Shown here: piece by piece, positions 51,396 to 53,976 of the stretch
How the letters are laid out: each line of letters opens with the position of its first letter
Position numbering within the stretch: the stretch's first letter is position 1
From: Spirochaetales bacterium
GTDB lineage: Bacteria > Spirochaetota > Spirochaetia > Sphaerochaetales > Sphaerochaetaceae
Direction of reading: 5' to 3'
DNA length: 61,248 bases
Assembly (NCBI GenBank): GCA_017470995.1
Contig: JAFUXI010000013.1
Location: forward strand, 1-61,248
The notes under the pieces: model-generated
Told to the model about the DNA's origin: nothing
The model's database searches: none
The model's input: only the letters and a program-made list of their open reading frames with translations
Program-made: the position numbers and the translations under genes

Positions 51396-52271
51396 TTACA
51401 GGGATTTCTTTACGAAGTCTATGAAAGTCTCATCTGCCAGCGGAAGGGGTTTGCCCTTCAGCCATACGAACAGGTACTCTACATAACGTCCCGAATTGAC
51501 GATCTCCTTTGCGACAATCTGCCGGTTCAGGACGTATGATGTCTTGGGAAACAGACTTATGCCTACATTGCAGCCTGCAAGGGCTGCGACATCCAGATAG
51601 TTGTCCATCCTGCAGACGATTCTGGGTTCGCAGCCGATTTCCGCAAACCATTTGTAGATCATGTCATTCATTGCCTCGCGGCTGGGCACAATCAGCGGCT
51701 GGTTTTTCAGAAGGGAAAGATCCAGGGTATCTCCCGGAAGCGCAGACAGGGGGTTGTCCTTGCTCATGAATGCCGTCATCTTCTCCTGGCCGACCTTGAA
51801 GCTGTTCAGCAGCGTCTGGTCGCAGGGAGCCGTGATGACTGCAAGGTTTATCAGGCCGCTTCTTAGCCGCTCTATGAGCTCATCGCTGTTTCCGTCCATG
51901 ATCCTGAATTTGATATCGGGGTATTTGCCTATAAATGACTCTATCCATTTGGATGCGATGTCCGGAGCAGAACCCTCGACAAGACCTATGGAGATAGTGC
52001 CGTTCATTTTCTTTCCCATAAGCCTGACTTCATCGGAGGCTTTGTCAGAGAGGCTCAGGATTTCCTTCGCACGTCTGTAGAGAAGCTTGCCGGAATCCGT
52101 CAGCTGCAGATGACGCTTTCCCCTGATGAACAGAACCGTATCCAGTTCCTGCTCCAGTGCCTTTATCTGGCTGCTCAGAGGCGGCTGGCTTATGTTGAGT
52201 TTGTCCGCTGCCTTGGTTATGTTCAGCTCTTCCGCAACCGCTACGAAATACCTCAGGACCCTGAGTTCCAT
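51396..52271 (-). CDS. LysR-family transcriptional regulator
   Basis: 291 residues from ATG 52271 (GAGGAGG upstream; the frame also opens at 52289). The N-terminal helix-turn-helix 'AEELNITKAADKLNISQPPL' and 'SSQIKALEQELDTVLFIRGK' are classical LysR. The C-terminal effector-binding domain begins near residue 90 ('GTISIGLVEGSAPDIAS') and includes 'QPLIVPSREAMNDM'. The ligand is unknown. It is divergent from pyrG with 109 nt between the starts, so it may bind in that region and regulate itself or pyrG (inference). Confidence 0.9.
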   Translation of the reverse strand: MELRVLRYFVAVAEELNITKAADKLNISQPPLSSQIKALEQELDTVLFIRGKRHLQLTDSGKLLYRRAKEILSLSDKASDEVRLMGKKMNGTISIGLVEGSAPDIASKWIESFIGKYPDIKFRIMDGNSDELIERLRSGLINLAVITAPCDQTLLNSFKVGQEKMTAFMSKDNPLSALPGDTLDLSLLKNQPLIVPSREAMNDMIYKWFAEIGCEPRIVCRMDNYLDVAALAGCNVGISLFPKTSYVLNRQIVAKEIVNSGRYVEYLFVWLKGKPLPLADETFIDFVKKSL

Positions 52272-52325
52272 ATCGCCTCCTCTAACCATACTTAAAACGT
52301 ATGATAACTATAATATTATATGTAT

Positions 52326-52354
52326 TTGTTTGTTTATTTGCAAATCTGTATAAT
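52326..52354 (+). promoter_or_regulatory. pyrG promoter
   Basis: TTGTTT (52326-52331), 17-bp spacer, TATAAT (52349-52354). Bases 6-9 after the -10 are C, C, C, G, so initiation is predicted at a run of cytidines. Confidence 0.65.
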
Positions 52355-52359
52355 GTAAT

Positions 52360-52377
52360 CCCGAGTTAATCGGGGGA
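52360..52377 (+). promoter_or_regulatory. pyrG leader hairpin that can mask the ribosome-binding site
   Basis: CCCGA (52360-52364), loop GTTAA, TCGGG (52370-52374). The 3' arm overlaps the SD GGGGGA (52372-52377), 4 nt or so before the ATG at 52381. The 5' arm consists of the very bases at which transcription should begin, so start-site choice decides whether the hairpin forms. Confidence 0.55.
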
Positions 52378-52380
52378 AAT

Positions 52381-53976
52381 ATGACCAAATACATCTTCGT
52401 GACAGGCGGTGTCGTTTCCGGACTCGGAAAAGGAATAACCGCAGCAAGCATCGGAAGACTGCTCAAGGCCCGCGGGCTGAAGGTCGCATCTCAGAAACTA
52501 GATCCGTATATCAACGTCGACCCGGGAACAATGAGCCCCTACCAGCATGGAGAGGTCTATGTCACTGAAGACGGGGCAGAGACTGACTTGGATCTGGGAC
52601 ACTACGAAAGGTTCATAGACGAGGATCTCAACAAGTTCTCGAACCTGACCACAGGCAAGGTCTATTCCAACGTAATCAACCGTGAACGCCAAGGCGGATA
52701 CTTAGGCTCAACTGTTCAAACAATACCCCACATAACCAATGAGATTAAAAATTTTATCTATAACGTCGGAAAAGAAACCAATGCAGATGTAGTAATCACT
52801 GAGATCGGTGGAACCATCGGAGACATCGAGGGTCAGCCCTTCATAGAGGCCATCAGACAGGTCGGCCTGGAGGTCGGACGCGAGAACGCCATCTATGTAC
52901 ACGTGACGCTGGTGCCGTACCTGAAAGCCAGCGGCGAGCATAAATCCAAGCCCACCCAGCACAGCGTCAAGGAGCTTCAGGGCATGGGTATCAACCCCAA
53001 CATCATCATACTGAGGGTGGACGAGAAGATAACCGACCAAAGCATCTTCTCCAAGATAGCCCACTTCTGCAACGTGAAGGACGACTGCGTCATCGAGAAC
53101 CTGACGCTTCCAAGCCTCTACGAGGCGCCTCTGATGCTTGAAAGCTCCAATCTCTCCGCCATCGTATGCAGGGAGCTTCAGATCGATGCCCCCGAGCCCG
53201 ACCTTTCCGAGTGGCAGGACCTGGTAAAGCGCATCAGACATCAGAGCAGGACGGTCCGTATTGCCCTGGTGGGAAAGTATGTCCAACTTCATGATGCCTA
53301 TCTCTCGGTTGTGGAGGCTCTGCATCATGCAGGCTATGCCTTGGATTGCAAGGTGGAGATCGAATGGATAGATTCCGAGACCATCACGAAGGAGAACGTA
53401 GGGGAGAAGTTCTCCGGCGTCACCGGAATCATCGTGCCGGGAGGCTTCGGAAACCGGGGCATTGAAGGAATGGTCCTCAGCGCCGAATATGCACGGACAC
53501 ACCATGTGCCGTATTTCGGGATCTGTCTGGGCATGCAGACTGCCGTCATCGAATATGCACGTGATGTTGCAGCCCTTAAGCGGGCCAATTCACGCGAGTT
53601 CGATTCCGATACCCCGTATCCGGTAATCGACTTCATGCCCGGTCAGTATGACGAGATAGACAAGGGCGGAACTCTGCGTCTCGGAAAGTATCCGTGCATT
53701 CTCAGTGAGGGGACTGTCATCCGTAGGCTTTACAAGAAAGAGGAAATCAGCGAGCGTCATCGCCACAGATATGAAGTGAATAATGATTTCCGCGATGACC
53801 TGCAGAAATCCGGGCTTTGCCTTTCGGGTCTTTCTCCGGACGGAAGGCTCGTAGAGACCGTCGAGATTCCGGGCGAGGAGTTCTTTGTCGGCGTGCAGTT
53901 CCATCCCGAGTTCAAGAGCCGTCCGAACAGGCCGCATCCGCTCTTTCTGGGTTTCGTAAAGGCTTCGATGGGCTGA
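52381..53976 (+). CDS. pyrG: CTP synthase
   Basis: 531 residues. The synthetase domain starts '[19 protein letters not shown]' (P-loop-like) and includes '[19 protein letters not shown]' and '[14 protein letters not shown]'. The class I glutamine amidotransferase domain from about residue 300 has the oxyanion region '[14 protein letters not shown]', nucleophile '[10 protein letters not shown]' (Cys) and the His/Glu pair in '[13 protein letters not shown]'. It makes CTP from UTP, ATP and glutamine. Preceded by a leader hairpin overlapping its SD, it is probably regulated by pyrimidine supply. Confidence 0.97.

Follow-up and report, generated by a model that had tools for sequence, protein, structure and literature searches.

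The question raised by this locus is whether a CTP synthase gene could be controlled by its own product through the choice of the transcription start. The window, i.e., the whole stretch of 61,248 nucleotides analysed here, belongs to a Spirochaetales genome (G000, estimated to be 81% complete) and contains pyrG at 52381–53976 of the forward strand. The gene encodes a glutamine-hydrolysing CTP synthase of 531 aa, which exceeds the cut-offs of the NF003792 and TIGR00337 models, contains the Pfam CTP_synth_N and GATase domains, and represents the sole PF06418 match in the genome. Its ATG is located at 52381, and the leader is very short, about 20 nt. An earlier sequence-only reading had proposed that this leader is built like that of Escherichia coli pyrC, with transcripts that start at cytidines masking their own Shine–Dalgarno (SD) sequence. 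If this is true, a pyrC-type start switch acts on CTP synthase itself and represents a protein-free loop of product feedback, which needs few bases and has recently arisen on the very enzyme whose product is sensed. Start-site switching on pyrG is not described among the literature matches listed (titles and abstract openings); where the terms for both co-occur, pyrG is present only in a gene list and switching only in the title of a reference.

Re-reading of positions 52280–52400 demonstrated that all the elements of the leader had been placed correctly. The probable -10 box of pyrG is TATAAT (52349–52354, forward strand, like all the leader features below), and the bases past it are G T A A T C C C G A. 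Positions 6, 7, and 8 past the -10 box are therefore cytidines (52360–52362) and position 9 is a guanosine (52363); with E. coli pyrC as a yardstick, all four are candidate starts. The sequences CCCGA (52360–52364) and TCGGG (52370–52374) are mutually reverse-complementary across a gap of 5 nt; RNA folding predicts their pairing as the 5' and 3' arms of a hairpin, as was suggested for C-started RNA. The 3' arm overlaps GGGGGA (52372–52377), which, judging by its position, is the SD. The -35 region appears to be weak: the candidate TTGTTT (52326–52331), located 17 nt 5' of the -10 box, matches the consensus in 3 of 6 positions; it was read by eye and is absent from the promoter scan list.

The region upstream of the -10 box recurs elsewhere, as revealed by a DNA search of 11 genomes of the genus. 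The 29-bp element TATGRTRRCYATAATATTATATGTATTTG (52300–52328, forward strand) was found at 11 sites in eight of these genomes, all without mismatch although three were allowed, while the reversed control gave 0 sites. TATAAT lies 20 nt beyond the element at all 11 sites. Since the query contained no -10 box, this supports the choice of the -10 in the sequence-only reading, which had missed both the upstream element common to pyrG and asnB and the operon context in relatives. Among 101 genomes of the family, the exact 19-bp core with TATAAT at a distance of 19–21 nt was detected at 14 sites in 11 genomes of three genera (control, 0); the spacing is 20 nt at 12 of them and 21 nt at both g11 sites. 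According to the sequences of the downstream genes, the element precedes asnB at ten of the 14 sites (eight in the genus, plus G062 and G121 in g11) and pyrG at three (G000, G005, and G008).

As a separate observation, in two genera the elements with TATAAT 20–21 nt beyond (L123–L130 and L162–L164) are situated before asnB, whereas in the third a transporter-like gene is nearby; a divergent lysR mostly lies alongside. The site of the third genus, the fourteenth (G054; L164, C48), lies beside a gene that by eye resembles a dicarboxylate/amino-acid symporter and might be a further member of the regulon. A second, near version of the element is located beside lysR in G054.

LysR-type regulators usually bind between about -61 and -33. 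With C52361 taken as +1, the 29-bp element occupies approximately this interval and can be considered a putative LysR binding site. A gene of a LysR-type regulator (51396–52289, reverse strand; Pfam HTH_1 and LysR_substrate) indeed diverges from pyrG. Its longest frame begins at 52289; however, the start at 52271 (MELR...) is likelier, since in the close relatives G005 and G003 a stop interrupts the beginning of the match, between the two positions, and relatives start at MELR. A candidate promoter of lysR (52315–52343, reverse strand; TTGCAA, 17 nt, TATAAT), known only as a match of the consensus scan, overlaps the element. The divergent lysR, the position of the conserved element at a fixed distance from the -10 box, the weak -35, and the nitrogen-assimilation genes involved are all features shared with LysR-type promoters such as those of GltC and similar regulators. 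In contrast to the named regulators, the window's protein falls below the cut-off of the best 25 of 55 NCBIfam models; these include AlsR, CidR, and GltC, and thus it is not filed as any of them.

The regulator and the element occur together. The lysR product was matched at 71–100% identity in 16 of the 101 family genomes, and the 17th match has an identity of 33%. Ten of the 11 exact-core genomes have a full lysR match, and in the eleventh, G002, lysR is cut by the contig end. The remaining six lysR genomes (G017, G019, G028, G034, G043, and G047) carry ATATGTATTTG, a near version that is likewise followed by TATAAT, within the lysR–pyrG stretch. Neither the element nor a lysR match was found in G001, G004, and G006 of the genus. 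The element lies upstream of asnB in eight of the 11 genus genomes, and in five of these eight, one a fragment at a contig end, lysR adjoins this copy. In G000, G005, and G008, the only genus genomes where pyrG is directly behind the element, lysR adjoins the pyrG copy instead. On contig C33 of the window's genome, a separate copy accompanies asnB, within a cluster that by eye resembles glutamate synthase and glutamine synthetase genes.

In 12 lysR–pyrG stretches from relatives, lysR is divergent from a gene run whose last member is pyrG (the order in G007 was taken from separate data). The largest run, that of G043, comprises genes of glutamate dehydrogenase, asparagine synthase, glutamine synthetase III, a glmS-like protein, NAD synthase, and CTP synthase (Pfam). 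The other runs are shorter, down to asnB and pyrG, with genes named by their sequence ends; glmS and nadE of G054 were identified with NCBIfam, and no asnB was recognised in the G054 run. All the enzymes of these operons fix, transfer, or use the nitrogen of ammonia or glutamine. This conservation makes a LysR control layer common to pyrG and asnB very probable, and the upstream element shared with asnB points to the LysR-type regulator as the main input to the pyrG promoter. If so, pyrG would share its regulon with nitrogen genes and not with the pyrimidine pathway. No description of such an element, or of a LysR regulon of amide-transfer genes, was found among the literature matches listed, and the conserved element provides a clear lead to such a regulon.

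As for the leader itself, E. coli K-12 pyrC (NC_000913) is the natural object of comparison. There, TATCCT is followed by T T G T G T C C G G, that is, T6 C7 C8 G9, and the window matches it exactly at positions 7–9; the parallel between the start positions drawn earlier is thus correct. Both are pyrimidine genes. As in pyrC/pyrD-type switching of E. coli and Salmonella, the window has pyrimidines at positions 7 and 8 and a purine at position 9, and its C-started RNA is predicted to pair with the SD more strongly than the G-started RNA. At high CTP, the starts of pyrC shift and its SD is blocked (PMC4491880). Bacterial transcripts most often start at position 7, and the levels of initiating NTPs affect the choice of the start (PMC5730371). 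The differences are that the window's feature is on CTP synthase and that its leader of about 20 nt has a 5-nt loop, compared with the 15-nt loop of pyrC; moreover, pyrG is behind a LysR-type element, whereas pyrC is also under PurR (PMC6245113).

The predicted hairpin of pyrG has 5 bp in RNA started at C6, 4 bp from C7, and 3 pairs from C8. The energy cost of opening the SD was chosen as the measure of masking, since the probability of the whole SD being unpaired does not exceed 0.021 in any RNA tried and is undiscriminating. When 15 nt of coding sequence were included, this cost was 8.3 kcal/mol for RNA started at C52360, 5.6 at C52361, 2.6 at C52362, and 1.55 at G52363; the values for pyrC were 6.25 (C7), 3.68 (C8), and 3.26 kcal/mol (G9). 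When the coding part of the fold was set to 6, 15, 18, 30, 45, 60, and 90 nt, the difference between C7 and G9 was about 4.2, 4.0, 3.5, 2.0, 0.7, 2.6, and 1.9 kcal/mol for pyrG and about 5.2, 3.0, 3.0, 4.7, 1.9, 3.5, and 2.6 kcal/mol for pyrC. The contrast of pyrG exceeds that of pyrC at two of these lengths (15 and 18 nt) and falls short of it at the other five. At 45 nt, where only 0.7 kcal/mol is left, the G9-started RNA pairs the SD with the coding sequence. The start-dependent masking proposed for pyrG is therefore upheld in its sign, C7 being predicted to be costlier at all seven fold lengths, but only partly in its size (0.7–4.2 versus 1.9–5.2 kcal/mol in pyrC). The predicted dependence on the start has the same order of magnitude as that of pyrC, is mostly smaller, and shrinks in some longer folds.

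This shrinkage is one of the reasons to consider that the hairpin might be a coincidence. In that case, pyrG would have a plain promoter governed by the LysR element and starting mainly at G52363 or C52362, and the complementarity of the C-run and the G-run would be a by-product of a G-rich SD near a C-rich start; this is a serious possibility, although its chances are below even. C-runs just upstream of the likely start recur in the regulon, namely, before asnB of G007, G002, and G009, as would be expected of such a by-product. A helix of at least 5 Watson–Crick pairs from positions 6–8 appeared in 0.81% of 200,000 spacer shuffles in which the SD was fixed, a frequency to be weighed with the fact that the leader was singled out by a reader seeking any oddity in the window. 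Less easily attributed to coincidence is the joint occurrence of this helix with C7 Y8 R9, found in 0.11% of the same 200,000 shuffles, as well as its location on CTP synthase at the exact positions of pyrC.

The background of the genome was estimated using 287 kb, comprising the window and 20 other stretches of the same genome, with 208 gene starts picked by a script. A -10-like hexamer was present 18–45 nt upstream of 48 of them; two of these 48 have C7 Y8 R9, and only pyrG has the helix, counting Watson–Crick pairs only. A GGGGG run is located upstream of six of the 208 starts. When 43 promoter-like starts (-10 at 22–45 nt) were ranked by energy using 18 nt of coding sequence, pyrG was the first, with 3.50 kcal/mol between starts 7 and 9; the next value was 1.94 and the median 0.01 kcal/mol. 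A looser count with G–U pairs allowed gave a helix of at least 5 pairs in eight of 39 promoter-like starts (201 gene starts) and both features in none. It was superseded, as its start picker missed the case of pyrG, and the successor recovered the pyrG start. The start-dependent masking of the SD of pyrG is thus unusual within its genome, which speaks against a by-product. No similar hairpin was seen by eye in the leader of the pyr operon of this genome, and Rfam gave 0 matches at E up to 1 in positions 52000–52700 of the window.

Conservation of the hairpin was assessed in relatives, whose leaders the sequence-only reading had expected to be informative about CCCGA and TCGGG. The G005 leader is identical to that of G000 from the -10 box to the ATG. 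Four-fold sites differ between the two at 22 of 248 (8.9%); at this rate, 26 bases would stay unchanged with a probability of ~0.09, and the identity of the leaders was therefore rejected as a sign of selection. G008, with 42 of 74 four-fold sites different, is the only informative ortholog. Its sequence past TATAAT reads TGATTCCGATTGAATGCGGGGAAGGACATG, and the start region TTCCGA and the GGGG are similar to those of the window. A CCG/CGG pairing survives there in a shifted register, but opening the SD costs about 3.2 kcal/mol whichever of positions 6–13 is the start. No dependence on start 7 versus 9 was observed in G008 (difference of at most 0.2 kcal/mol at seven fold lengths). This G-run without start dependence is again what a plain LysR-element promoter would be expected to have. 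Of 12 promoters of the regulon that were scored (G005 pyrG was left out as identical and G054 because of its unclear target gene), a change of more than 1.5 kcal/mol from start 7 to start 9 was found in G000 pyrG only.

A wider survey included 170 pyrG loci, 90 from the 104 genomes with a pyrG match and 80 further loci, of which 168 were usable and 165 distinct. A -10-like hexamer in the appropriate range was found in 23 of the distinct leaders, and the hairpin feature was found in that of G000/G005 only. Conservation of the hairpin across pyrG leaders of the spirochaete group and clostridia was therefore rejected (1 of 165 distinct leaders). The hairpin is not conserved beyond the sister species G005, and in this respect it differs from that of pyrC, as does the switching, which in the window is a prediction. 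Confinement to one narrow lineage again fits the reading of the hairpin as a by-product. Separately, the L219 (G039) pyrG leader has TATAAT and C7 C8 G9 but no hairpin between the start and the SD.

Two further explanations retain the hairpin as functional. The stem at the 5' terminus might hold translation low or shield the 5' end from decay without any sensing of CTP. According to the folds, a 5-bp stem at the extreme 5' end could serve both purposes if C52360 were a main start. This seems improbable, as both the position and the purine rules disfavour starting with a C at position 6 (PMC5730371). Still less probable is the reiterative addition of C at the CCC start under high CTP, with the extra Cs pairing with the rest of the GGGGG of the SD. 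Two added 5' Cs are predicted to produce a 7-bp helix over all five Gs, with a fold energy of -15.0 versus -8.9 kcal/mol. Slippage at starts is common in Streptococcus agalactiae, is enriched at nucleotide genes, and is suggested to modulate the translation of thyA, the start of which lies in its SD (PMC4448216). However, the material available from this source contains no gene with C slippage, 67% of the slipped bases being A, and G008 has only CC.

For pyrG of the Bacillus type, a reiterative mechanism has been described in which attenuation is prevented by Gs added at the start (Meng et al. 2004, as cited in PMC4448216). The similarity consists in a CTP-responsive leader proposed on the same gene. 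In contrast to that system, the window has no G-run at the start, and no terminator-like site was found by the scan between the -10 box and the ATG.

Returning to the start switch, we prefer it to coincidence since the latter would have to fall on CTP synthase itself, although on the present evidence the two are about as likely. A pyrC-type CTP brake on the pyrG leader, behind a likely promoter that carries the putative LysR element, is thus put forward tentatively, with less than even confidence. It starts from direct observations, namely, the element at its fixed distance from the -10 box, its place before asnB elsewhere, the order C6 C7 C8 G9, and the complementarity. The case for the leader layer comes from its geometry, its predicted energies, and its suitability for this gene; geometrically, it is a good candidate, restricted to a single narrow lineage. 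In the proposed mechanism, the neighbouring LysR-type regulator would bind the 29-bp element and answer to ammonia or glutamine status. RNA polymerase would use both C7 and G9 as starts, and high CTP would favour C7. RNA started at C7 would fold over the SD, while that started at G9 would stay more open. The hairpin, of 4 bp from C7 or 5 bp from C6, would limit translation, and plentiful CTP would thereby lower the amount of CTP synthase. Against such a brake, the rule that a G just downstream favours a start (PMC5730371) indicates C8, from which only 3 pairs are formed. Also weighing against it are the lack of start dependence in G008, the small contrast of pyrG in some folds, the helices at eight of 39 starts when G–U pairs were allowed, and the pyr operon leader.

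As for the history of the locus, pyrG is elsewhere the last gene of the operon divergent from lysR, and it was probably in the lineage of G000, G005, and G008 that it became a neighbour of the LysR promoter. The brake would then have arisen in, or been kept only in, the G000/G005 branch, and comparison of G000 and G005 with G008 would allow its origin to be studied. The broadest form of this proposal is slightly less likely: that pyrG left a nitrogen operon and acquired, in recent times, a control point of about 80 bp with two inputs. LysR would report ammonia or glutamine on the substrate side, and the choice between C and G starts would report the product, CTP, possibly strengthened by slipped Cs covering the whole GGGGG.

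In the course of the leader survey, another pyrG leader motif was found: purines followed by CAAAGGCG, together with a pyrimidine-rich complement and a stem resembling a terminator, 66–179 bp upstream of the gene. It is present at 11 of the 167 pyrG loci scanned (L014, L037, L039, L050, L052, L054, L066, L083, L087, L089, and L098), after five of 16 raw matches were deemed spurious by eye. No Rfam match was obtained for the nine of these 11 leaders that were searched. The motif looks like a clostridial pyrG attenuator; a single genome of the class to which the window belongs has it as well (L014). In addition, the pyrG of the window is closer to the pyrG of MAGs labelled Clostridia (best identities of 75–83%) than to that of many genomes of its own family (52–67%). 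This likeness suggests a transfer of the gene, perhaps together with the asnB operon.
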